From Nordella sp. HKS 07 (GTDB taxonomy: Bacteria; Pseudomonadota; Alphaproteobacteria; Rhizobiales; Aestuariivirgaceae), in contig NZ_CP049258.1 in assembly GCF_011046735.1 (NCBI RefSeq), positions 2,746,001 through 2,810,000 of the forward strand: DNA of 64,000 nucleotides, in the 5' to 3' direction. Each line of letters opens with the position of its first letter. Position 1 is the first letter of the stretch. Shown here piece by piece: positions 18,481 to 31,197 of the stretch. Under the pieces are notes generated by a model, which saw only the letters and a list, made by a program, of their open reading frames with translations, made no database searches and was not told the DNA's origin. Both the position numbers and the translations under genes were made by a program.

Positions 18481-19407
18481 CTATGGCATGAGGTCGACCA
18501 TCGCTTCGCGCGCGATGACGGCGCCCGGATACTGGATGACGCGGCTCGCCAGAAGATGCGCCTTGCGCACGCTGTCCTGGACCGAGGCGCCGGACAGCCG
18601 CGCTGCCAGATAGCCGGCATTGAAGCTGTCGCCGGCGCCGGTCGTGTCGCGCGGCTGGCTGATCCTGTCGAGCATGATGCTGCCCAGCTGCGTGTGAACC
18701 GGCCCGCCGCCGGTCTTGACCACGACCTCGCGGGGACCCAGCGCGGCAATCTCGCCAACCCAGTCTTCGGCGCTCTGCGTCTTGGCGAAGATCGCCTCGA
18801 GATCGTCGGATGAGGGAAGCACATGGCTCGCCGCCGCGATCGCTTCCCGCATCCATGTCGCGGCTTCGGTTCGGTCGGTCCACAGAAGCGGACGGTAATT
18901 CGTGTCGAAGACGGCGGGACGTCCCGCCGAGCTGACACGGCGCAACAACTCGATCAGCCGCCGGCGGCCGGCGGCACCCAGCACGGCGAGCGTGATGCCG
19001 CTGGTGAACACCGCATCACTTGCCGCGAGCCCTTCGGCGAGCTCAGGCTCCTCGAACAATTGCCGGACCGGTGCCTCACCGCGCCAGTAGCTGAAGGAGC
19101 GCTCCCCCTTGTCGTCGGTATCGATGATGTAGAGGCCGGGCCGGCGGCCGGGCACCCGCGCAATATGGCGGCAGTCGATGCCTTCATTCGCGAAACTCTC
19201 GATCATCCAATCGCTCAGCGGGTCATCGCCGAGCCGGGTCACATACTGCACGCGCGCCGTCTCAGGTCTGAGCAGCCGTGCCAGATAGACGGAGGTGTTG
19301 AGCGTGTCCCCGCCGATGCGGCGGTCATAGGTGAGCGGTCCGCTCAGGGATCGGGCCAGCTCGATCATCGGTTCGCCGATGGCGGCGAGGGTCAGGGGCT
19401 TTGTCAT
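18481..19407 (-). CDS. kdgK: 2-keto-3-deoxygluconate kinase, PfkB family
   Basis: A 308-residue ribokinase-family sugar kinase. It starts LAAIGEPMIELARSLSGPL and has the substrate motif YDRRIGGDTLNTSVYLARLL, AVFDTNYRPLLW in the middle and the catalytic ATP-site motif DTTGAGDSFNAGYLAARLSG near residue 255. This set matches 2-dehydro-3-deoxygluconokinases. It would phosphorylate KDG to KDPG for aldolase cleavage. It converges on dgoK, so the locus covers both C4 epimers of the keto-deoxy acid. A fructokinase-like role is less likely given the context. Confidence 0.85.
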   Translation of the reverse strand: MTKPLTLAAIGEPMIELARSLSGPLTYDRRIGGDTLNTSVYLARLLRPETARVQYVTRLGDDPLSDWMIESFANEGIDCRHIARVPGRRPGLYIIDTDDKGERSFSYWRGEAPVRQLFEEPELAEGLAASDAVFTSGITLAVLGAAGRRRLIELLRRVSSAGRPAVFDTNYRPLLWTDRTEAATWMREAIAAASHVLPSSDDLEAIFAKTQSAEDWVGEIAALGPREVVVKTGGGPVHTQLGSIMLDRISQPRDTTGAGDSFNAGYLAARLSGASVQDSVRKAHLLASRVIQYPGAVIAREAMVDLMP

Positions 19408-19475: not shown

Positions 19476-19520
19476 AGATTTCGAACAGGTTTTTGCGTCG
19501 ACGGCAACCGGTAGCCGATC

Positions 19521-19533
19521 TAGAACACTTCTA
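19521..19533. promoter_or_regulatory. Probable iron control element (Irr box) TAGAACACTTCTA
   Basis: A perfect inverted repeat TAGAA-CAC-TTCTA matches the core of the known rhizobial Irr-binding consensus (TTTAGAAnnnTTCTAAA). It lies ~50 bp upstream of a candidate promoter for the imelysin/bacterioferritin operon. Irr acts under low iron as repressor or activator; position well upstream of the -35 would suit activation. Binding is inferred. Confidence 0.5.
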
Positions 19534-19579
19534 ATCTATTGAACATGCTGAATTTTTTGCCGCGCCCCTGGAATCGCGA

Positions 19580-19620
19580 TTGACAGAGGCGGCCTCCATC
19601 GAATAACTGACTAAATCAGT
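19580..19620 (+). promoter_or_regulatory. Candidate sigma-70 promoter with adjoining palindrome, iron operon
   Basis: TTGACA at 19580-19585 and AATAAC at 19602-19607, 16 bp apart, form a reasonable promoter. The perfect inverted repeat ACTGA-CTAAA-TCAGT at 19606-19620 overlaps the -10 and start region, a typical repressor position. It does not fit the RirA box spacing (TGA-N9-TCA). The mRNA leader to the imelysin ATG would be about 220 bases. Confidence 0.4.
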
Positions 19621-19842
19621 CGGATTATTTGGTTTCCAATGGTCTCGCCATGAGCGCCCAATTCTGTCCCGCGAGCTGTCCTTTGCAGCTCCTCAATCAC
19701 GATGAGTTTGGATCGAAACGGTCCTATGCCGATACGCTGGTTCAAGCCGGCCAGAAGCTCTTGAGCGTTCCCACCGGCGCGGCCGCGGGGACACTCCATT
19801 GAGCCAACCATGCAGAGCGATCTCAGAAGGGGACTTACCATC

Positions 19843-21120
19843 ATGAAACGGCATCTCCTGGCGTTCACCGCCGGCACGGTCCTGACGCTGGCCTCGGTCA
19901 TCTCGATCGCGCGCGGCGCGGAAGTGACGGCGGATGCCGTTCTCAAGCACTATGGCGACGTCGCCGAGGCCATGTATACCGACGCCCATGCGGCTGCCGT
20001 CGATCTGGGCAAGGCGATCGACGCCCTGATCGCCAATCCGTCGGAAGAGACGCTGAAATCCGCGCGCGCCGCCTGGAAGGAAGCGCGTCCCTGGTATCAG
20101 CAGACCGAAGGCTATCGTTTCGGCAACAGCATCGTCGATGATTGGGAGGGCAAGGTGAATTCCTGGCCGCTCGACGAAGGCCTCATCGACTATACCGACA
20201 AGGGGACCTATGGCGAGACCTCCGACGAGAACCCGCTCTATGCCGCCAATGTCATCGCCAACACGTCCATCCGCATCGGCAATGACACCGTCGACACGAC
20301 GAAGATCGATGCCGCTCTCCTGCAGAAGCTGCAAGGGGCGGGCGACAACGAGGCCAATGTGGCGACCGGCTATCATGCCATCGAGTTCCTGCTCTGGGGC
20401 CAGGATCTGAACGGCACCAAGGCCGGCGCCGGCAACCGCCCCGCCACCGACTACGACACCAGGAACTGCAGCAACGGCCATTGCGACCGGCGCGCCGCCT
20501 ATCTCAAGGCCGCGAGCGATCTGCTTGCCGCCGATCTCGCCGAAATGGCCGCGAGCTGGAAGGCCGAGGGTGCCGCGCGCAAGGATCTTGCGGCCAAGGG
20601 CGCGGATGGCGGTCTGTCGACCATCCTCACCGGTCTCGGCAGTCTGTCTTATGGCGAACTCGCCGGCGAGCGCATGAAACTCGGCCTCATCCTGCATGAT
20701 CCGGAAGAGGAGCATGACTGTTTCTCCGACAACACGCACAATTCGCATTATTTCGACCAGGCCGGCATGATCTCGATCTATGGCGGCACGCTCAAGCGCC
20801 GCGACGGCGCCAGCCTCGAAGGTCCGGGTCTTGCAGCACTTGCCGCGGGCAAGGCGCCCGCCGAGGCCAAGAAGCTCGATGGGCTGATGGCCGATGCCGA
20901 GAAGAAACTTGGTGCGATCCGCGACCGGGCGGAAAACGGCAAGGAGTCCTACGATCAGATGATCGGCCAGGACAATCCGGAAGGCAATGCGCTGATTCAG
21001 GCAGGGATCGACGCGCTCGTCGCGCAGACGCGCGGCATCGAAGCGGTGGTCGCCGCCCTCAATCTCAAGATCACGGTCGAGGGCTCCGACAGTCTCGACA
21101 ATCCTTCCGCGGTGCAGTGA
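19843..21120 (+). CDS. Imelysin-family iron-regulated protein (IrpA-like)
   Basis: A 425-residue periplasmic protein; residues 1-25 are a signal peptide (MKRHLLAFTAGTVLTLASVI and onward). The imelysin GxHxxE motif is GYHAIE at 176-181, within ATGYHAIEFLLWGQD; a C-terminal part has EEEHDCFSDNTHNSHYFDQ with further possible metal ligands. Family members (EfeO, IrpA, ICMP) are linked with iron uptake, perhaps binding haem or iron at the cell surface. An AAGGGG site lies before the ATG at 19843; an ATG eleven codons upstream is less likely. First gene of an eight-gene operon behind a probable Irr box. Confidence 0.88.
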   Translation: MKRHLLAFTAGTVLTLASVISIARGAEVTADAVLKHYGDVAEAMYTDAHAAAVDLGKAIDALIANPSEETLKSARAAWKEARPWYQQTEGYRFGNSIVDDWEGKVNSWPLDEGLIDYTDKGTYGETSDENPLYAANVIANTSIRIGNDTVDTTKIDAALLQKLQGAGDNEANVATGYHAIEFLLWGQDLNGTKAGAGNRPATDYDTRNCSNGHCDRRAAYLKAASDLLAADLAEMAASWKAEGAARKDLAAKGADGGLSTILTGLGSLSYGELAGERMKLGLILHDPEEEHDCFSDNTHNSHYFDQAGMISIYGGTLKRRDGASLEGPGLAALAAGKAPAEAKKLDGLMADAEKKLGAIRDRAENGKESYDQMIGQDNPEGNALIQAGIDALVAQTRGIEAVVAALNLKITVEGSDSLDNPSAVQ

Positions 21121-21131
21121 GGAACGCGCTC

Positions 21132-21404
21132 ATGCTCAGATATAGACGACATGTCCAGTCCTTCACGCAAGCCGAGATCGCCGAGAAGCTCAAAGTGGCC
21201 GAGACACTGCGCGGCGAAGGCAAGCGGGTCTATGAAATCGCCCGTGTTCTCGGCGTCACCGACACGACCTATTACAACTGGCTGAAGCGGGCCGAGAAGC
21301 CCCGCTCGGGCGATGCGGAATTGCGCCGCCTGCGCCGCGAGAACGCGCAGCTGAAGCGGGCGGTGAAATCGCTGGCCGGTATCGCCGGAGCGGCACAGAG
21401 CTAA
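21132..21404 (+). CDS. Small helix-turn-helix protein, transposase OrfA-like, in the iron operon
   Basis: A 90-residue basic protein. FTQAEIAEKLKVAETLRGEG and then YEIARVLGVTDTTYYNWLKR form a transposase-type HTH like that of IS3 OrfA proteins; the C-terminal LRRLRRENAQLKRAVKSLAG could form a short coiled coil. ATG at 21132, with GAGGAAC before it, is preferred to a GTG that overlaps the imelysin stop. No second transposase frame or terminal repeats follow; the next gene is a ferredoxin. It may be a domesticated transposase domain serving as operon regulator, or an inert remnant. Confidence 0.65.
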   Translation: MLRYRRHVQSFTQAEIAEKLKVAETLRGEGKRVYEIARVLGVTDTTYYNWLKRAEKPRSGDAELRRLRRENAQLKRAVKSLAGIAGAAQS

Positions 21405-21408
21405 CATC

Positions 21409-21924
21409 ATGATCGTCTGCCAGTGCAACGTCATTACCTCGCGCCACATCAAGGAGGCCGTCAACCGCCTGATGGAGTTTGACGAGTTCCGCGTGGTGAC
21501 TCCGGGCGCGGTCTTTCGCTGCTGCGGCCAGCGGCCGCAATGCGGCGGCTGCATGCCGCATCTGGTGCAGCATGTGGAAGCGGCAGTTCTCGAAGTGCGC
21601 GGTTCGCCGCCTTGCCAAATGGACCAATCTGCACCATTCTCCGCCGAAGAAGCTGAGTATGTGGAGAAGGCGGATGAAGGGTCACAAGAAGGTCATCGAG
21701 TATCTGAACAGGGGTCTGCGCAGCGAGCTGACCGCGGTGAGCCAGTATTGGGTTCATTTCCGGCTTCTGGAGGACTGGGGTTTCTCGAAGCTTGCCAAGA
21801 AGGAGCGCGAGGAATCGATCGAGGAGATGCATCATGCGGACAAGTTCATCGCCCGCATCGTGTTCCTCGAAGGACACCCGAATTTGCAGACACTCGATCC
21901 CTTGATGATCGGGCAGAATATTAA
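21409..21924 (+). CDS. bfd: Bacterioferritin-associated ferredoxin with unusual C-terminal read-through
   Basis: The first ~65 residues are a BFD-like [2Fe-2S] domain: [18 protein letters not shown] then [20 protein letters not shown], giving the CxC and CxxC cysteine sets. Bfd donates electrons to bacterioferritin to release stored iron. Known Bfd proteins end near here, but this frame has no stop and runs 171 codons, overlapping the first ~250 bases of bfr in another frame. The extra residues ([20 protein letters not shown] onward) look like out-of-frame sequence. Either the natural stop was lost or there is a base error near 21600-21670. The adjacent bfr supports the function. Confidence 0.75.
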
Positions 21925-22159
21925 GGAAGTCCTGGAATGCGATCTGAAGGCCGAATACGGCGCGCGTGATCTTTATCGCGAAGCCTACACGGTCTGCCAC
22001 GAGGCCGGGGATTTCGTTTCCATGGAGCTCTTCAAGGAGCTTCTCGCCGATGAGGAAGGCCATATCGATTTCATCGAAAGCGAGCTCAGCCTGCTCGAGA
22101 AGATCGGGCTCGAGAATTACGGCCAGCTCCAGGCCGATTCGAGCGACAAGAAAGAGTAG
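21674..22159 (+). CDS. bfr: Bacterioferritin
   Basis: A 161-residue haem ferritin that forms a 24-subunit iron store in the cytoplasm. All di-iron centre ligands are present: Glu18, Glu51, His54, Glu94, Glu127 and His130, plus Met52, the axial ligand of the inter-subunit haem. The start at 21674 has a good GGAGAAGG site. The reading frame lies inside the read-through end of bfd. Placed in an operon with imelysins and a multicopper oxidase, it links iron entry to storage. Confidence 0.95.
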
Positions 22160-22179
22160 CGCGAAAGCCACGGACCACG

Positions 22180-22214
22180 TCTCCCTCCCCGCGCTTCGCA
22201 CGGCGGAGGGAGGT
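22180..22214. repeat. Short hairpin CTCCCTCCCCGC / GCGGAGGGAGG
   Basis: CTCCCTCCCCGCGCTTCGCA followed by CGGCGGAGGGAG can form a hairpin in the gap between bfr and the multicopper oxidase gene. It resembles the REP-like units elsewhere in the window and overlaps the ribosome-binding region of the oxidase gene (GGAGGGAGG), so it could restrain its translation. Confidence 0.4.
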
Positions 22215-22222
22215 TATCTCCC

Positions 22223-23677
22223 ATGCTGACGCGCCGGGCCGTTCTCACCGCCGCTGCCGGGGGCCTTGCCGCCCCCGCTTTGCTGTCGCTGTCGCGTGCC
22301 GACACGGCGAAGCCGCTGCCCGAAGCGCCCCCACGCGTCGGCGCCTCCGCCACGCATGAGGTGACGCTCGAAGCCAAGGCACGCAGCGTCGAGTTGTTCG
22401 GCGCCGACGGACCCAAAAGCACGCTATGGACCTATGGCGATGAGCTCTTTCCCATACTGCGCGCGCGGCGCGGCGATCGTCTGCGCGCCACGCTCAGAAA
22501 CAGCCTCGCCGAGCACACCTCCATTCACTGGCATGGCGTGCGCGTGCCCAATGCGATGGACGGCGTCCAGTATGTGACGCAGCAACCGGTGGAGCCGGGG
22601 AACAGCTTCGTCTATGATTTCCCGCTTCCCGATACCGGGACCTTCTTCTTTCATCCTCATTGCAACGAAACGGGACAGGTCGGCCATGGGCTGGTTGGCG
22701 TCCTCATCGTCGAGGGTGATGAAAGCCGGCCTTTCGACGACGAGCTGGTTCTCATCGCCAAGGACTGGCGCCTCGATGCCGATGGCAGCTTCCTACCCTT
22801 CACGACCGACAGCGGGGCGGCGCGCGCCGGCACGTTCGGCACGGTTCGTACCGTCAACGGCCAGCGCAGCCTCACGCGCAAGGTTCCAGCTTCCGCGGAC
22901 ATCCGCCTGCGCCTTCTCAATCTCGATTCGACCCGCATGATGGATGTGGGCGTGGAAGGGGCCGAAGCCCACATCATCGCCATCGATGGCAATCCGCTCC
23001 CCGCTTTGCCGCTCTGCAGCTGGCGCCTCGGCGCCGCCTCGCGCGTCGATCTGGTGCTGCGCACGCCCAAGGCCGGCGGCAAGGTGCTCATCCGCGACTA
23101 TTTTCCGGCCGAGATCTTCGATCTGGCCGAGCTCGAGGTGGAAGGACCTGACCGCCAGGCCGGCGGCTTCGACCCGGCTCCGCTTTATGCCGCGCGCCTG
23201 CCCGAGGCCGATCTTTCGGCGGCAGAGCGGCAGGCCTATGTCTTCGGCGCGGCCTCCGATTCGATCGCCAGCTTCGTCGATACGCTCGACCCGAATGATC
23301 CTTTATCCAAGGTCATATTGGATGAATTGTGCACCGCCGAGCGTACCTTCTGGGCGATCAACAAACGGTCCTGGCCGAATGATGGACATCGCAAGCTGCC
23401 GCCGCCGCTGGCACGGCTTCAGGCGGGCAAGAGCTACCGGTTCATGCTGCAGAACGCGACGCCGCATCCGCATCCGATTCATCTGCATGGACATACATTC
23501 AAGGTGCTCTCGTCCTCCAGGCGCAACCTGCCTGTCCATTATGCCGACACAGTTCTGGTTCTCCCTAAGGAGCGCATCGAGATCGCCTTCGTTGCAACGC
23601 CCGGTAGGTGGATGTTCCACTGCCACATATTGGAACATCTGGAGACCGGCATGATGGGTTATTTCGCGAACACATGA
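22223..23677 (+). CDS. Multicopper oxidase, Tat-exported, probable ferroxidase or cuproxidase
   Basis: A 484-residue three-domain cupredoxin oxidase. A twin-arginine signal (MLTRRAVLTAAAGGLAAPAL) implies folded export to the periplasm. Copper sites are visible: HWHG at 102-105, HPH at 144-146, HPIHLHGH near 417-424, and HCHILEHLETGM near 466-477, which provides the type 1 and trinuclear ligands. Substrate cannot be read from sequence; in this operon Fe(II) oxidation is the reasonable guess. Methionine-rich segments of CueO-type enzymes are not evident. Its stop overlaps the next ATG (ATGA), so it is coupled to the di-heme cytochrome. Confidence 0.88.
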   Translation: MLTRRAVLTAAAGGLAAPALLSLSRADTAKPLPEAPPRVGASATHEVTLEAKARSVELFGADGPKSTLWTYGDELFPILRARRGDRLRATLRNSLAEHTSIHWHGVRVPNAMDGVQYVTQQPVEPGNSFVYDFPLPDTGTFFFHPHCNETGQVGHGLVGVLIVEGDESRPFDDELVLIAKDWRLDADGSFLPFTTDSGAARAGTFGTVRTVNGQRSLTRKVPASADIRLRLLNLDSTRMMDVGVEGAEAHIIAIDGNPLPALPLCSWRLGAASRVDLVLRTPKAGGKVLIRDYFPAEIFDLAELEVEGPDRQAGGFDPAPLYAARLPEADLSAAERQAYVFGAASDSIASFVDTLDPNDPLSKVILDELCTAERTFWAINKRSWPNDGHRKLPPPLARLQAGKSYRFMLQNATPHPHPIHLHGHTFKVLSSSRRNLPVHYADTVLVLPKERIEIAFVATPGRWMFHCHILEHLETGMMGYFANT

Positions 23678-24993
23678 CGGCGTTCCGCACGGCCTGCGCC
23701 ACCTTTCTCTGTCTCACCGCCAGCTCTCTCGCGCAAGATCACGGTGAGTTTGGATCGAATCGATCCAAACTCACAAACGTGATCGATTCCATTAATTTAG
23801 CGCGGGATTCTGGCGAAAAACCGGTATCCACTTTTTCGCATCCCGCGCCCGAGGAGCTCGATTCGGCGGTAGGCAAGGCTTTGTTCGAGCGTCGCTGGGT
23901 GCAGGCGCCGGCCTCCACCAATACCGCCGACGGGCTGGGCCCGCTCTTCAATGCCGGCGCTTGCGCCTCCTGCCACAAGAACGGCAATGGCGCGCGCTTC
24001 TCGATGATCGATGGCGTGCTCGGTGTGGCCGGCTTCGTCGTGCGGCTCGGCGACGCGCAAGGCCATGCCGATCCGTTTCTCGGCCGCCAGCTGCAGGAAC
24101 ATGCCATACCGGGTCTGGCGCCTGAGGCGCGCATTGACCCCTATCTCGAGCAAAGCCCGAACGGCCTGCCGCTGATGCGCGCCAGGATCACCTTTAACGA
24201 CGCCAAGCCAGCGCCCGAGACCCGCACCGAGTTCCGCGTCGCGCCGTCTCTCATCGGCCGCGGCCTCATCGCCCGCGTGGCCGAGGCCGAGATCCTCAAG
24301 CAGGCCGAAAGCGAGGATCGCAATGGCGACGGTATCACCGGCCGCGCCCGCATCGTGTCGACACCGGAAGGCTCGCGCATCGGCCGCTTCGGCCTCAAGG
24401 CGACGGGGGTGAGCCTCGCCGACCAGACCGCCGACGCCATGATGCTCGATATGGGGCTGTCTTCGCCATTCCAGCCTTTCCCTTATGGCGACTGCACCAA
24501 GGCCGAGATCAAATGCCTCGCCAACGCCAATGGCCGCAGCCCGGAAACTGACGGTGAGGAAATTTCGAAGCAAATGGTCGACATGGTCGCGGCCTATGTC
24601 GCAGCACTCGCGCCGCGCCCGGTTCCCGCCAATCCCGAAGGCGCGCGTCTTCTTGCCGCAACGGGCTGCGCGGCCTGCCACACCGAAAGCCTCAAATCGG
24701 AGAGCGGCGACGCTTTGCCGGTCTTCACCGATCTCCTCTTGCATGATATGGGCGATGGTCTGGCGGGCGGCTTCCCCGATGGCTTTGCCTCGGCGAATGA
24801 ATGGCGCACCGCTCCCTTGATCGATCTGGCGTCGCGCAACGGCAAGCGGCGCTATCTGCATGATGGGCGTGCCGCCACCCTCGATGAAGCCATACGCTGG
24901 CATGGTGGCGAGGCCGCGAAAGCGAAGGACCTTTATATGAATCTGTCCGCGTCGGACCGCGCCAAACTGATCGACTATCTGGGATCGCTGTGA
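23674..24993 (+). CDS. Di-heme cytochrome c, DUF1111 / thiol oxidoreductase-like
   Basis: A 439-residue secreted protein with an N-terminal signal (MTAFRTACATFLCLTASSLA). Two haem-binding motifs are seen: CASCH at 97-101 and CAACH at 332-336. Blocks such as GPLFNAGACASCHKNGNGAR, DGITGRARIV and GRFGLKAT are typical of the DUF1111 di-heme family related to cytochrome c peroxidases. Homologues usually sit with imelysin genes. Residues ~22-60 are encoded by an inserted palindromic repeat that leaves the frame open (see 23738-23852). Likely role: periplasmic electron transfer during iron reduction or oxidation. Confidence 0.85.
   Translation: MTAFRTACATFLCLTASSLAQDHGEFGSNRSKLTNVIDSINLARDSGEKPVSTFSHPAPEELDSAVGKALFERRWVQAPASTNTADGLGPLFNAGACASCHKNGNGARFSMIDGVLGVAGFVVRLGDAQGHADPFLGRQLQEHAIPGLAPEARIDPYLEQSPNGLPLMRARITFNDAKPAPETRTEFRVAPSLIGRGLIARVAEAEILKQAESEDRNGDGITGRARIVSTPEGSRIGRFGLKATGVSLADQTADAMMLDMGLSSPFQPFPYGDCTKAEIKCLANANGRSPETDGEEISKQMVDMVAAYVAALAPRPVPANPEGARLLAATGCAACHTESLKSESGDALPVFTDLLLHDMGDGLAGGFPDGFASANEWRTAPLIDLASRNGKRRYLHDGRAATLDEAIRWHGGEAAKAKDLYMNLSASDRAKLIDYLGSL
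23738..23852. repeat. Palindromic repeat inserted in frame in the di-heme cytochrome gene
   Basis: The block begins with a perfect 15-bp inverted repeat, GTGAGTTTGGATCGA (23744-23758) and TCGATCCAAACTCAC (23760-23774), one base apart. It ends with a second palindrome bounded by GCGGGAT (~23802-23808) and ATCCCGC (~23844-23850) around GAAAAACCGGTATCCACTTT. The same units occur as intergenic copies at 19426-19475 and 19701-19720. It adds about 38 codons (SNRSKLTNVIDSINLARDSG and beyond) between the signal peptide and the first domain without breaking the frame. Confidence 0.7.
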
Positions 24994-26012
24994 TGCGGCT
25001 TTCCCGGCGGCTGTTCCTCTGTCTGGCGCTGATCGCAGCGGCGACGCCGGCGCATGCTGTCGAGGATGTGCTGAGCCGGCTGGTCGAGCGCTTCATCATT
25101 CCGCATTATCAAGCGCTCGCCTTGACCGCCGACGCGCAGGAGAAGGCCTGGTCGGATTTCTGCGCCAAGCCCGATCCGGAAGGGTTCAAGCTCTTGAAGC
25201 GCGCTTATCTCTCCACCGCCGATTCCTGGTCGCAGATCGAGTTCCTGCGCTATGGACCGGTCAGCGAGGAGTTCCGCGCCGAGCGCCTGTCCTATTGGCC
25301 CGAGCGCAAGAACGCCACCGCCAAGGGCCTGGCGCTGCTCCTGGAAAAGGACGGCGTCGCCGATCTGACACCTGAGCTCTTCGTCAAGAACAGCGTCGCG
25401 GCGCAAGGCCTGCCGGCCCTCGAACGTCTGCTCTTCGACGTCAATGCCGAAACCGAAATGCTGAGCGGTGAGCGCCGCGCCCGGCGCTGCGCGGTCGGCC
25501 AGGCGATTGCCTGGAACATCGTGATGATCGCGCATGATGTGCGCCTCGGCTGGACCAATGAGCTGGAGGACCAGCTCGCCGAGAAAGCCGTGGCCAAGGA
25601 GGCGACGCAGCGCATCGCCACCGATTTCCTCGCTTCCTTCGGCTATATGAGGGACGCGAAATTGCGCGCCGTGCTCGGCAAGGACGCCGGCTCGGCGCGC
25701 CCGCAATTGGCCGAGGGCTGGCGCAGCACCCGCTCGAAGCGCGCCTTGACGCTCAATCTCGAAGCGCTTCTCGATGTGAGCAAGATCATCATGGCGGAGA
25801 AGGAAGGCGACACGATATCGACCATAGCGACGGCCGCGAGCTTTGCCGATAACCTGCCCGAGGATTTCGGCAAGGCGGTCGTCGATGCCAAGGCGCGCCA
25901 GCAATTCTACTTGGTGCTCGATGCGATTGCCGCGGCGCGCGACAAGGCGCATGACGAGATTCCGGCCTTGCTCGGCGTTACCGTGGGGTTCAACAGCCGC
26001 GATGGTGATTGA
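24993..26012 (+). CDS. Imelysin-family protein (second, divergent)
   Basis: A 339-residue protein with signal peptide (MRLSRRLFLCLALIAAATPA). The imelysin core is recognisable, but the GxHxxE motif is replaced by GLPALE (in AAQGLPALERLLF), lacking the His, a form seen in the shorter imelysins that accompany DUF1111 genes. The ATG overlaps the cytochrome stop (TGATG), so translation is coupled. Its last bases overlap the DUF1513 gene. Probably a partner of the first imelysin in periplasmic iron handling. Confidence 0.8.
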   Translation: MRLSRRLFLCLALIAAATPAHAVEDVLSRLVERFIIPHYQALALTADAQEKAWSDFCAKPDPEGFKLLKRAYLSTADSWSQIEFLRYGPVSEEFRAERLSYWPERKNATAKGLALLLEKDGVADLTPELFVKNSVAAQGLPALERLLFDVNAETEMLSGERRARRCAVGQAIAWNIVMIAHDVRLGWTNELEDQLAEKAVAKEATQRIATDFLASFGYMRDAKLRAVLGKDAGSARPQLAEGWRSTRSKRALTLNLEALLDVSKIIMAEKEGDTISTIATAASFADNLPEDFGKAVVDAKARQQFYLVLDAIAAARDKAHDEIPALLGVTVGFNSRDGD

Positions 26013-27123
26013 TCGACGCGACATTCTGCGTGGGATGGCGGCGGCGCTCGCGGCGAGCGTCATGCCCGGCGCAAGCCTGGCGGCGCGCGCCAGGGTCCCG
26101 CTTTACGTGTCCTGCCGCATGGACGCGGAGGGCAAAGCTTCGGCGGTGATGTTCGCGCTCGACGGCGAAGAGATCTTCTCGACCCTGCTGCCGTCGCGCG
26201 GCCACGACGCGACCGCACGTCCCGCCACATCGCAGATCGTGGTCTTCGCCCGACGGCCCGGAAACTGGTTCGCCGTCATCGATGCCACCCGCAAGAGCGA
26301 GACGCAAACCGTCCTCGCCGCCACGGACCGGCATTTCTACGGCCATGGCGCCTTCACGCCCGACGGCCGCCTGCTCTATGCGACGGAAAACAATGCGCGC
26401 ACCGGCGACGGTGTGCTCGGCATCTATGATGCGACGGACTCATTCCGTCGCATCGGCGAGGTTTCCTCGCGCGGCGTCGGTCCGCATGATCTGGCCTTCC
26501 TGCCGGACGGCGCGACGCTGGTCGTCGCCAATGGCGGCCTGCGCACCTTGCCCGAAACCGGCCGCGAGGTGCTCAATCCCGGCGACATCCAGCCCAATAT
26601 CGCGCTCATCGAGGCGGCGCATGACCGCACTTTGGCGGTGCTGCAGCTCGACCAGCCTTACCGCGCTTTGTCCATCCGCCACATGGCGGTGGCGCAGGAT
26701 CGCACGGTGGCCTTCGGCTGCCAGTATCAGGGCAATCCCAACGATCTGCCGCCGCTCGTCGGCACGGTGAGCCCGGACGGCAAGATCGCTCTTCTGGAAA
26801 TGCCGGAAGTCGAGCTCATGGGCATGTCGAACTATGTCGGCTCCATCGCGCTCGACAAGAGCGAGGACATGATCGCCGCGACGAGCCCGCAGGGCGGCGC
26901 CGTCGCTCTATGGAACCGGCGCAACGGCGAGTTCCTGGGGAGCGAGCGGATGAGCGATGTCTGCGGCGTCGCCGCTCTTCCCGATCATCGCCAGTTCCTG
27001 CTTACGTCCGGCAATGATGGCGTGCGCACCTATGTCGAAGGCGCCGAGACGCTGACGCGCATCGCCGCCGACAGGCTGCAGAAATGGATCTGGGACAATC
27101 ACCTGCTGCCGATCAATCTGTGA
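26002..27123 (+). CDS. DUF1513 beta-propeller protein, Tat-exported
   Basis: A 373-residue protein. The N-terminus MVIDRRDILRGMAAALAASV is a twin-arginine signal. The rest has repeated blades of WD-like character (FYGHGAFTPDGRLLYATENN, GPHDLAFLPDGATLVVANGG, RHMAVAQDRTVAFGCQYQGN, CGVAALPDHRQFLLTSGNDG), consistent with a seven-bladed propeller. This family regularly ends imelysin/DUF1111 clusters; its role is unknown. The start overlaps the imelysin stop by 11 bases. An open frame further upstream is a shadow of the imelysin gene. Confidence 0.82.
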   Translation: MVIDRRDILRGMAAALAASVMPGASLAARARVPLYVSCRMDAEGKASAVMFALDGEEIFSTLLPSRGHDATARPATSQIVVFARRPGNWFAVIDATRKSETQTVLAATDRHFYGHGAFTPDGRLLYATENNARTGDGVLGIYDATDSFRRIGEVSSRGVGPHDLAFLPDGATLVVANGGLRTLPETGREVLNPGDIQPNIALIEAAHDRTLAVLQLDQPYRALSIRHMAVAQDRTVAFGCQYQGNPNDLPPLVGTVSPDGKIALLEMPEVELMGMSNYVGSIALDKSEDMIAATSPQGGAVALWNRRNGEFLGSERMSDVCGVAALPDHRQFLLTSGNDGVRTYVEGAETLTRIAADRLQKWIWDNHLLPINL

Positions 27124-27295: not shown

Positions 27296-28336
27296 CTAGT
27301 ACATATGCCCCTTCAGCGCCGACAGCCGCACCGGTGCGCCGATCTCTATCCCGGCGCGGGTCAGCCGGTGCGCCGGCATCTCGATCTCGACCGGCTTGTC
27401 GATCGTGTTGATCTCGACATCGACCCGGGCCATCGGCCCTACCACCGACAGGAAGCGCACCGTGCCCACGCCCGCCGCATCCTTGACGATGTCGATGTCA
27501 TGCGGACGCACATAGATGTTCTCGGCGCCGACGGAGGAAGGCCGCACCGTGATGGCGTCGAGATCGATGGCCGGATGCGTCATCCGGCCGTCCGCCCAGG
27601 TGAGGGGAATGCGGTTGGCGCTGCCGAGGAATTCGCACACGAAGGGATTGGCCGGGTTCTCGTAGATCTCGCGCGGCTTGCCGATCTGCTCGATGCGGCC
27701 CTGGCTCATCACCACCACCCGGTCGGCGATCTCCATCGCTTCTTCCTGGTCGTGGGTGACGAAGATCGAGGTCATACCGGTCTCTTCGTTGAGGCGGCGC
27801 AGCCAGCGCCTGAGCTCCTTGCGCACCTTGGCGTCGAGCGCGCCGAAGGGTTCGTCGAGAAGGAGCACGATCGGCTCGATGGCGAGGGCGCGGGCGAGCG
27901 CCACACGCTGGCGCTGGCCGCCCGACAGTTCGGAGGGATAGCGATTGATCAGCCTGCCGATCTGCACGAGATCAAGCAGCTCCTGAACGCGCTTGGCGAT
28001 TTCGGCGGTGGACGGCCGCACGTTGCGCGCCCTGACGGTGAGCCCGAAGGCGACATTGTCGAACACGGTCATATGGCGGAACAGGGCATAATGCTGGAAC
28101 ACGAAGCCGACGCCGCGCTCGCGCGCATCGACGCGCAGCACGCTCTTGCCTTCAATCCTTACGTCGCCGGCATCCGGCCATTCGAGCCCGGCGATGATGC
28201 GCAAGAGCGTCGTCTTGCCGGAACCCGAGGGGCCGAGCAGCGCCAGGAGCTCGCCGCGATTGACCGACAGGCTGACGCTCTTCAAGGCGACGAAGCTGTC
28301 GAACCCCTTGCTGATGTCGATGGCATCGATGCTCAT
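27296..28336 (-). CDS. cysA: Sulfate/thiosulfate ABC transporter ATP-binding protein
   Basis: A 346-residue ATPase. Walker A is [20 protein letters not shown] near residue 34; [11 protein letters not shown] is the Q-loop; [17 protein letters not shown] the signature; [12 protein letters not shown] Walker B; and the H-loop lies in [12 protein letters not shown]. The C-terminal third is a TOBE-type regulatory domain. [20 protein letters not shown] at the N-terminus is typical of CysA. It overlaps cysW by four bases in a cysT-cysW-cysA order. Confidence 0.93.
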
Positions 28337-29142
28337 GCGTGTCCCTTCTTCCTTTCGAGCAGGCTTTGCGCGGCCAGCGTCACGAAGGCGAGCAGCGCCA
28401 GCAGCGAGGCGACGGCAAAGGCGGCCGTGAAGTTGTACTCATTATAGAGGATTTCGACATGGAGCGGCATCGTGTTCGTCCTGCCGCGGATATGCCCCGA
28501 AACGACCGAGACGGCGCCGAACTCGCCCATGGCGCGGGCATTGCAGAGAAGCACGCCATAGAGGAGGCCCCATTTGATATTGGGCAGCGTCACCCGGAAG
28601 AAGGTCTGCAGGCCTGAGGCGCCAAGCGACACGGCGGCTTCCTCGTCCTCGGTGCCTTGCTCCTGCATCAGGGGGATGAGCTCGCGCGCCACGAAGGGAA
28701 AGGTCACGAACATGGTGGCGAGCACGATGCCCGGCAGCGCGAAAATGATCTTGATGCCGGAGCCCTGGAGCGCCGGGCCAAGCCACCCCTGCAGACCGAA
28801 GAGGAGAACGAAGACGAGGCCCGCGATCACCGGCGAGACCGAGAAAGGCAGATCGATCAGCGTGAGCAGGAAGCTCTTGCCCTTGAATTCGTATTTGGCG
28901 ATCGCCCAGGCGGCCATGACGCCGAAGACGAGATTGACCGCGACCGAGATGAGCGCGGTGATCAAGGTGAGGCGGATGGCCGAGAGCGTCATCTTGTCGA
29001 TGAGCGCCAGGACATATTCATCCCAGCCTTTCGACAAGGCTTGCGCAAAAACGGTGACGAGCGGCAGGCCGATCAGGAGCGCCATCACCAGGAAGGCGAG
29101 CGTGATCAGCAGGATGCGGAAGAAGAGCGGGTCGCGGTTCAT
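28333..29142 (-). CDS. cysW: Sulfate ABC transporter permease CysW
   Basis: A 269-residue inner-membrane protein with six predicted membrane segments. The ATPase-coupling loop [24 protein letters not shown], the N-terminal [16 protein letters not shown] segment, and [20 protein letters not shown] are characteristic of CysW. It pairs with CysT to form the sulfate channel. Six bases separate it from cysT, and it overlaps cysA by four. Confidence 0.92.
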
Positions 29143-29147
29143 GAGGC

Positions 29148-29993
29148 TCAGGCGGCTCCCTGACGTTTGCGGCCCCAGGCCTGCAGCACATTGATGAGGA
29201 AGAGCAGAGCGAGGGAGGCGATGAGCATCGCCACCGCGATGGCGGTCGCCTGCTCATACTCGAATTCCTCGAGCTTGATGACGATGAGCAGCGGCGCGAT
29301 CTCCGACACCATCGGCAGGTTGCCGGCGATGAAGATCACCGAACCATATTCGCCGACGGCGCGCGCGAAGGCGAGCGCGAAGCCGGTGAGGAGGGCGGGC
29401 AGAATGCTGGGCAGGATGACGCGCCGGAAAATGGCGAGGCGCGTGGCACCCAGGCAGGAGGCGGCCTCTTCCGTCGCCTTGTCGATGTCGGCGAGCACCG
29501 GCTCGACGGTGCGCACCACGAAAGGCAGGCCGATGAAGATGAGGGCGACGAGAATGCCGAGCGGCGTGAAGGCGATCTTGATGCCGGCGAGACCGAAGAG
29601 CGAGCCCAACGCGCCATTCGGCGCATAGAGGTTGGTGAGCGCGATGCCGGCGACGGCGGTCGGCAAGGCGAAGGGGATGTCGACCATGGCGCTGAGGATG
29701 CGGCGCAGCGGAAAGTCGTAACGCACCAGGACCCAGGCGATGAGGAGCCCGATCACCACATTGATCGCCGCCGCGATGAGAGACAGGCCGAAGCTGAGCT
29801 TGAGCGAGGCGAGCACGCGCGCCGTGAGGATCGTGTCGAAGAAGCCCGAGAAGCCGAGAGTGGCCGCCTTCAGCACGAGCCCTGAGAGCGGGATCAGCAC
29901 GATCAGGCTGAGCCACATCAAAGTAAGACCGAGCGTGATTCCGAAGCCTGGGACCACGCTCGGCTTTCGCCACAGTCTGGGGAGAGGGGTCAC
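29148..29993 (-). CDS. cysT: Sulfate ABC transporter permease CysT
   Basis: A 281-residue permease with six membrane segments. It has [20 protein letters not shown] at the N-terminus, [20 protein letters not shown] in the middle and the coupling loop [20 protein letters not shown], all CysT/CysU features. The start codon is GTG at 29993 with no clear ribosome-binding site. A ~200-bp gap with a palindromic repeat separates it from the binding-protein gene upstream. Confidence 0.92.
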
Positions 29994-30032
29994 TGTGGGA
30001 TAAGACCTAGAGAGAAGACGGGAGGGGAAGAA

Positions 30033-30162
30033 TTACCCTCGCCCCCTTCGGGAGCGAGGGAGGGTGAGGGGGGAAGGGCGGTCAGCTTCCGGAGCTTCCC
30101 TCGGAAGCCGTTCCATTTGTTCCCTCTCACCCCAGTCCTCTCCCCCGCGGGGGGAGAGGGTG
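30033..30162. repeat. Pair of palindromic repeats between cysT and the sulfate-binding protein gene
   Basis: TTACCCTCGCCCCCTTCGGG continuing to AGCGAGGGAGGGTGAGGGG at 30033-30070, and CCCTCTCACCCCAGTCCTCT to CCCCCGCGGGGGGAGAGGG at 30122-30160, form two facing hairpin units of the same REP-like type as at 9484-9705 and 35191-35345. In an operon this would favour higher levels of the upstream binding-protein mRNA. Confidence 0.6.
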
Positions 30163-30195
30163 TCTCGGCATCCTCAGGGCCAGTCATGCCACGCC

Positions 30196-31197
30196 TCAAT
30201 TGCTGGGCTTGTAGATCTGGTCGAACACGCCGCCATCGGCGAAGTGCTTCTCCTGCGCCGCCTTCCAGCCGCCGAACTCGTCGTCGATGGTGAAGAGCGA
30301 TATCTTCGGGAAGGCGTCCTTGTATTTCGCCTCGACCGCCGCATCGCGCGGCCGGTAGGAGTTCTTCGCGACGATCTCCTGGGCTTCAGGCGAATAGAGG
30401 AAGTTCAGATAGGCTTCGGCCTGCTTGCGCGTGCCCTTCTGGTCGACCACCGCATCGACGACCGCCACCGGCGGCTCGGCCAGGATGCTCTCGCTCGGCA
30501 CCACGATCTCGAATTTGTCGGTGCCGAATTCCTTGAGCGCCAGGAAGGCTTCGTTTTCCCAGGCGAGCAGAACGTCGCCGATGCCGCGTTCGACGAAGGT
30601 CACGGTCGAGCCGCGCGCACCCGTGTCGAGCACCGGCACATTACGGTAGAGGTCGGCGACGAAATTGCGCGCCGCGGTCTCGTCCTTGTTGTTCTTGTGC
30701 AGCGCATAGCCCCAGGCGGCCAGGTAGTTCCAGCGCGCACCACCCGACGTCTTCGGATTGGGCGTGATCACCTGCACGCCCTGCTTCGTCAGATCGGACC
30801 AGTCCTTGATGCCCTTGGGATTGCCCTTGCGCACCAGGAAGACGATGGTCGAGGTGTAAGGCGCGCTGTTATTGGCGAGCCGCTTCTGCCAGTCCGCCGC
30901 GATCAGTCCCTTCTTGGCGATCGCGTCGATGTCATAGGCGAGCGCCAGCGTCACCACATCGGCTTCGAGGCCGTCGATGACAGCGCGCGCCTGTTTGCCG
31001 GAACCGCCATGCGATTGCTGGATGGTGATCGTTTCGCCGGTCTTGGCCTGCCACTGCTTGGCGAAGGCCTCGTTCAGCTCCTGATAGAGCTCGCGGGTCG
31101 GGTCATAGGAGACATTGAGGAGTTCGGTGTCGGCCCGGGCGGCTGTGGTGAACAGCGCCGAGACTGCGGCTAATGCGAGGAAACTGCGTCGAAACAT
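30196..31197 (-). CDS. sbp: Sulfate-binding periplasmic protein
   Basis: A 333-residue protein with a signal peptide ([20 protein letters not shown] then RA). The mature part begins [20 protein letters not shown], the hallmark of sulfate/thiosulfate-binding proteins, and includes [20 protein letters not shown] and [20 protein letters not shown], which supply main-chain and Ser contacts to sulfate. It delivers sulfate to CysTWA encoded downstream. Confidence 0.93.

Follow-up and report, generated by a model that had tools for sequence, protein, structure and literature searches.

The window analysed here is a 64,000-nucleotide stretch of Nordella sp. HKS 07 (G000:C1:2746001-2810000), whose genome is a single contig of 7.18 Mb. 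Its plus strand carries, at 19843-27123, a cluster of eight genes in the order imelysin, helix-turn-helix (HTH) protein, Bfd-like ferredoxin, bacterioferritin (Bfr), multicopper oxidase (MCO), DUF1111 protein, second imelysin and DUF1513 protein, behind an Irr-type box. Neighbouring genes overlap or are 4-63 nt apart, and this spacing, the open reading frames (ORFs) and the Pfam matches bear out a preliminary description of the DNA that had reported these eight genes in this order and direction with overlapping or close starts. That description missed two features, the remnant of a further gene (X; 19650-19802) and an insertion of ~37 residues in the DUF1111 protein. The type of operon is already known and the window locus is a richer variant of it; the new details are the added MCO, the small DNA-binding protein and X as a ninth gene.

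Gene content

Imelysin 1 (19843..21120, plus strand; ICMP/IrpA type; Pfam E 4.8e-80) has a signal peptide recognised by eye and a GxHxxE motif, read from the sequence as GYHAIE, and its closest solved sequence is 7xrx (E 2e-116). The small HTH protein (21117..21404, plus strand, alternative ATG at 21132; Pfam HTH_Tnp_1 / HTH_23) resembles IS3 OrfA. The Bfd-like [2Fe-2S] ferredoxin (21409..21924, plus strand) matches Fer2_BFD at E 2e-4 and 22 bits, under the 26-bit cut-off, and has the CQC and CGGC cysteines. Its conserved part covers about the first 60-90 codons; the frame has no stop ahead of bfr and stays open for ~250 nt into bfr out of frame, an overrun also present in congeners and in L053 (275-296 nt). 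The two genes overlap by 35 nt in several Mesorhizobium-type loci. Bfr (21674..22159, plus strand; Pfam Ferritin E 1e-33; TIGR00754 189.7 bits vs a cut-off of 125.6) is the single match in the genome at E <= 1e-15, and the ferroxidase and haem ligand residues E18, E51, M52, H54, E94, E127 and H130, placed by the Escherichia coli Bfr positions, are present by eye.

The MCO (22223..23677, plus strand) has three MCO domains (Pfam), a twin-arginine N-terminus and four copper-ligand motifs, which are retained in all 14 aligned sequences save for one segment missing in L062. It is followed by the DUF1111/DHOR di-haem cytochrome (23674..24993, plus strand; Pfam DHOR E 2e-46; CASCH and CAACH), imelysin 2 (24993..26012, plus strand; Pfam E 3e-31), whose GxxxxE variant motif reads GLPALE, and a DUF1513 protein (26002..27123, plus strand; Pfam E 1e-101) with a Tat-like N-terminus. 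The operon thus shows the layout of the PA4370 type, namely a GxHxxE imelysin, DUF1111 and a GxxxxE imelysin in one direction, and holds both imelysin matches of the whole genome.

The row is flanked on the left by a kinase-like ORF (18481-19407, minus strand) and on the right by an ATP-binding cassette (ABC) ATPase-like ORF (27296-28336, minus strand). The latter opens a set of ABC importer genes directly downstream of the operon (27296-31197, minus strand), of sulfate type by eye.

Conservation of the order and of the core

Twenty MCO neighbourhoods were fetched for comparison of gene order. All eight genes stand in the window order in four of them (L033-L036), from three congeners and from G009, which belongs to another genus of the same family. 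Every congener whose contig spans the locus (3/3) keeps the order, L039, a congener contig, starts within the MCO, so that just the last four genes are visible, and the other 15 neighbourhoods have a more distant MCO only, one of them with DUF1111 on the other strand. The occurrence of the order beyond this strain, which the preliminary description had set as a check, was thereby confirmed. Protein identity is 75-96% to the congeners and 46-75% to G009, and all eight genes appear from their ratios of nonsynonymous to synonymous change (dN/dS 0.04-0.28 against two congeners) to be under purifying selection. The HTH protein is 46-47% identical in G009 (locus L036, which is the same locus as L053), with weaker look-alikes (35-42%) in four other genomes. 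Its gene was considered as a transposon remnant, and this was rejected within the genus, since its dN/dS is 0.04-0.09 in comparison with two congeners and the operon encodes no partner transposase.

Two wider sets of loci were compared. The named set comprises 80 listed loci (at least 80 exist) found via imelysin 1, and the order sample comprises 76 genomes, picked by score and diversity and hence non-random, of the 193 that match DUF1513 out of 397 genomes of the order; the sets share a few genomes. Imelysin 1 and DUF1111 lie on one strand in 79 of the 80 listed named loci and in 68 of 76 sampled loci, and loci with truncated contigs, rearrangements or no DUF1111 found were dropped from the counts of what lies in the slot between them. 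An MCO is in the slot in 17/79 listed named and 11/68 sampled clusters; under the criterion applied, it always stands between imelysin 1 and DUF1111. Named carriers include Kaistia, Microvirga, Ancylobacter, Xanthobacter and Dongia. Bfr is in the slot in 8/79 and 5/68, respectively, and named carriers of Bfd-Bfr include Mesorhizobium, Hoeflea, Rhodobium and Oryzicola. Outside the window genus, MCO and Bfr occur together in one of the 79 (L053) and none of the 68, and the combination of MCO with Bfd-Bfr was encountered in just two genera, the window's and one further. The comparison shows imelysin-DUF1111-imelysin-DUF1513 to be a fixed core with an interchangeable slot. Porin-like ORFs, recognised by eye, also lie between imelysin 1 and DUF1111 in L149, L150, L151, L095, L141, L145 and L152. 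In eight loci a CorA-type gene separates imelysin 2 from DUF1513 (1 of 8 tested by Pfam); these, L088 (14349-15386) and seven similar ones in Ensifer/Rhizobium-type clusters, may have a linked metal permease.

The Bfr phylogeny comprised 35 sequences, 19 of them in the slot, with long branches present. A single ancestral insertion was rejected by the approximately unbiased (AU) test, as the in-slot Bfrs do not form one clade (p-AU 5e-6); likewise rejected were a clade of the slot Bfrs with G007 (p-AU 2e-4) and one of the window genus with 13 other in-slot Bfrs (p-AU 2e-4). One clade of the window genus with L053 is compatible with the test (p 0.165). Three Bfrs treated as free of the cluster (G019, G039 and G007) turn out to have a box, X, DUF1111 or a cluster nearby. 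Because several groupings are rejected, Bfr has probably moved relative to the cluster more than once, in a tree that does not distinguish gain from loss.

Gene X and a dispersed repeat

Directly upstream of imelysin 1, the congeners and L053 have a gene of ~175 codons, named X here (full-length examples: L034 2720-3244, L053 2560-3093 and L266 3421-4110). In the window only 50 in-frame codons remain (19650..19802, plus strand), in which a copy of a dispersed repeat connects the two ends of X, and a profile search of the whole window genome gave no match to X. Comparison with these relatives indicates that X is a ninth operon gene lost only in this strain. The genome has 13 copies of the 14-nt core of the repeat, against 0 for the control. 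Its copies at 19696-19724, the X deletion junction, and at 23738-23766, inside the DUF1111 gene, are 90% identical over 29 nt; the latter copy accounts for ~37 residues of the DUF1111 N-terminus (~23737-23850) that relatives lack and that follow the presumed signal peptide.

The X profile matched in 39 loci, compared with 156 that have imelysin 1, and X was present in 21 of 60 relatives. It lies just upstream on the same strand in 28 of the 39 by a strict distance rule, or in 34 by our own reading, which allows over-extended ORF starts. In G019, X-Bfd-Bfr comes after a box, and the 9.5 kb examined there contain no ORF for imelysin, DUF1111 or DUF1513. X had no match at cut-off in Pfam or NCBIfam, and a PDB sequence profile returned de novo designs only (E 0.03 or more). 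An AlphaFold model built from 12 sequences is all-helical (pLDDT 87.6, pTM 0.84), and its comparison with the PDB gave only weak matches (Foldseek best E 1.3; VIA best Z 5.3), which do not prove a new fold. X is a conserved helical protein without a name, encoded behind Irr boxes and ahead of imelysin or Bfd-Bfr, and offers a concrete new target.

Regulatory region

The Irr-type box, of the iron control element (ICE) kind (19519..19535, no strand assigned), has 12 of 14 half-site matches to the Irr consensus. Its core TAGAACACTTCTA (19521-19533) begins where the preliminary description did and also lies upstream of the operon in G001, G002 and G003. Across loci, a box of at least 12/14 within ~1 kb upstream of imelysin 1 was found in 55 of 148 vs ~0.005 expected per locus, a background drawn mostly from coding DNA, with near relatives counted apart and cells non-independent. 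When the upstream stretches were shuffled in blocks to control for composition, the result was 0.0-0.05 vs counts of 12 and 18, and TAGAA-N3-TTCTA occurs in 12 of 152 upstream stretches vs 0.0 in shuffles. The genome encodes Irr (NF045678, 211 vs 150 bits) beside a FabA-like ORF, and its only other FUR match is Zur-like and under its cut-off. An Irr-type box upstream of the operon is thus well supported by sequence, and what the preliminary description called a probable Irr box has held up. With an Irr gene and an ICE-type box both present, the operon would belong to the Irr regulon, binding being predicted.

The exact 13-mer has four sites in the genome: the operon, mbfA, the gap between an ABC-importer gene pair and an MscS-like ORF, and the start of a sensor-kinase-like gene. 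At mbfA (MbfA 518 bits vs a 450 cut-off) the box ends 10 nt ahead of the ATG. The operon box lies ~85-90 nt upstream of the presumed transcription start, upstream of the promoter and not over it, and in the three congeners the box is 685-696 nt upstream of imelysin 1, ahead of X. Promoter-like hexamers TTGACA-16 nt-AATAAC (19580..19607, plus strand) were recognised by eye and both are kept in L034 and L035; a generic promoter and terminator scan gave no excess over shuffles, and the hexamer pair was absent from its output. A second palindrome, GACTAAATCAGTC (19609..19621, no strand assigned), covers the presumed transcription start, is the same in L034 and has one mismatch in L035. The form GACT-N5-AGTC occurs upstream of imelysin 1 in 7 of 148 loci vs ~0.6 expected, and the palindrome is a possible repressor operator.

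Permease candidates

No FTR1/EfeU-type ORF was found in 19521-27123, and the operon therefore lacks the in-operon permease of EfeUOB. The earlier statement that no permease is present holds for the operon but does not extend to the genome, whose FTR1-cupredoxin pair and Irr-boxed ABC importer elsewhere go part of the way to answering how iron may cross the membrane. The single FTR1 (G000:C1:4212472; 132 bits vs the EfeU cut-off of 255) forms a gene pair with a cupredoxin (L158 4586-5797), followed by a transposase-like ORF. The ABC-importer gene pair has the second Irr-type box at a distance of 123 nt on its upstream side.

Interpretation

Here an imelysin cluster without a permease holds both a putative oxidase and the only bacterioferritin detected in the cell. 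With about even confidence, we regard the operon as an iron-acquisition operon of the PA4370-PA4373 or Rhodobacter sphaeroides irpA kind, enlarged by two accessory modules. The explanation we favour, which we hold as likely to be right as wrong, is periplasmic capture and redox handling of iron induced at low iron, with import in trans and Bfd-Bfr as a buffer. Irr bound upstream of the promoter would switch on the presumably co-transcribed genes at low iron, the two imelysins would bind periplasmic iron, and the DUF1111 di-haem protein and the MCO, as a putative ferroxidase, would govern whether it is reduced or oxidised. The resulting Fe(III) would be imported by a permease encoded elsewhere, either FTR1 with the cupredoxin or the Irr-boxed ABC importer, and cytoplasmic Bfr would buffer the incoming iron, which Bfd would reduce out again. 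The position of the box upstream of the promoter favours this explanation, in contrast to the mbfA box 10 nt before the ATG. Also in its favour are the conserved gene order, the purifying selection on all eight genes, the frequency of the box upstream of imelysin 1, the Irr gene, the retained copper ligands of the MCO, the FTR1-cupredoxin pair and the iron-starvation response of the related R. sphaeroides operon.

Several observations weigh against it. The slot has neither MCO nor Bfr in 55/79 listed named and 52/68 sampled clusters; because most clusters have neither, the core probably functions without them, and the preliminary proposal of one pathway is weakened; the conserved directional cluster stands. 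Boxes of at least 13/14 are found in 0/28 MCO clusters vs 26/120 others (the window's site scores 12), and the exact 13-mer occurs as often genome-wide as its reversed control (4 vs 4; 1-3 vs 3-6 in congeners). The closest solved relatives of the MCO are general MCOs and laccases, with FET3 far (E 4e-25, residues 69-257 only). At the ABC importer, the box at fbp is only 15 nt from the divergent MscS-like ORF, and the binding protein matches no NCBIfam iron model. Finally, in R. sphaeroides irpA, bfd and bfr are reported to be barely altered by deletion of Irr and to be controlled by IscR.

The operon might instead serve iron or peroxide detoxification and storage, with Irr repressing at low iron and, at high iron, MCO and DUF1111 oxidising periplasmic Fe(II) and Bfr storing it. 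In Bradyrhizobium, bfr and mbfA are reported to be under Irr repression when iron is low, and iron derepresses bfr; mbfA, which encodes an iron exporter, has the same box in the window genome; the G019 stretch with a box ahead of X-Bfd-Bfr lacks imelysin genes; and the box is far commoner in clusters with Bfr in the slot (15/17 vs 40/131, related loci being non-independent). We nonetheless consider this unlikely, as expression of the R. sphaeroides operon increases when iron is scarce, chiefly in the presence of oxygen, PMC3143127 links imelysin, DUF1111 and Fur-regulated clusters to uptake, and the box here is upstream of the promoter rather than over it.

It is likewise doubtful that the MCO has nothing to do with iron and oxidises copper or phenolic compounds, having been recruited in response to a different stress, a proposal that concerns one gene and is compatible with any other reading. 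Besides the MCO and laccase relatives named above, the CopA and CueO models match under their NCBIfam cut-offs (153 of 479 and 133.7 of 525 bits, respectively), while the recurrence of in-slot MCOs between imelysin 1 and DUF1111 speaks for a link to the cluster.

We think it quite improbable that the slot after imelysin 1 simply collects genes that profit from shared iron control, with no iron transferred between their products. The slot or its neighbourhood does hold MCO, Bfd-Bfr and extra ORFs, the CorA-type gene precedes DUF1513 in eight loci, and the slot Bfrs are not one clade; a random bundle, however, would not favour Bfd-Bfr, which repeatedly adjoins imelysin clusters in the slot or divergently. 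Very unlikely, in our judgement, is the proposal that a dedicated-ferroxidase MCO hands imelysin Fe(III) to an Irr-co-regulated permease in trans, with Bfd-Bfr as sink and X as a recently lost cytosolic Bfr-imelysin partner. The locus allows deletion tests of the coupling between periplasmic oxidation and cytoplasmic storage.

Comparison with known systems

Like EfeUOB and EfeUOM, the operon places an imelysin-family periplasmic protein beside a haem protein; unlike them it has no EfeU and no DyP peroxidase, and FTR1 is elsewhere in the genome. Oxidase-coupled uptake by Fet3p-Ftr1p is similar in that an MCO and an FTR1 protein occur within one cell; here the two are unlinked and the MCO sequence is far from FET3. 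Pseudomonas aeruginosa PA4370-PA4373, as described in PMC3143127, shares the canonical imelysin, DUF1111 and GxxxxE imelysin and has no EfeU in the operon; unlike the window operon, it is without Bfd, Bfr, MCO and HTH genes and is Fur regulated.

Closest is the hemP-irpA-bfd-bfr-RSP_1545-1544-1543 operon of R. sphaeroides (PMC4618611, PMC4176601, PMC3413700, PMC4344238). Its imelysin gene (RSP_1548, so called in PMC4344238) is followed, as in the window order, by bfd, bfr and the gene of a two-haem-c "thiol oxidoreductase", so that bfd-bfr lies between imelysin and DUF1111. The last two genes, RSP_1544 and RSP_1543, may correspond to imelysin 2 and DUF1513. Co-transcription there is strongly suggested by dRNA-seq (PMC4618611), and irpA and bfd are induced by iron starvation (PMC4618611, PMC4176601), with wild-type -Fe/+Fe values of 4.05 for irpA, 2.71 for bfd and 1.99 for bfr. 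Without IscR the operon genes are derepressed, with log2 changes from RSP_1548 to RSP_1543 of 2.53, 2.30, 1.50, (0.59), 0.92 and 0.72 (PMC4618611). Unlike the window operon, it has hemP in front, no MCO, no HTH gene and IscR rather than Irr control.

The available parts of the imelysin/irpA-bfd literature (PMC3143127, PMC4344238, PMC4618611, PMC4176601, PMC3413700, PMC9174327) describe no MCO in an imelysin operon. The embedding of bfd-bfr, which the preliminary description had singled out, is rejected as a novelty since PMC4618611 already describes it in R. sphaeroides; the MCO and HTH genes stand as additions. Because that imelysin-bfd-bfr-DUF1111 operon is already described, it is only the MCO and the HTH gene, among the eight, that the window locus adds to a known operon.

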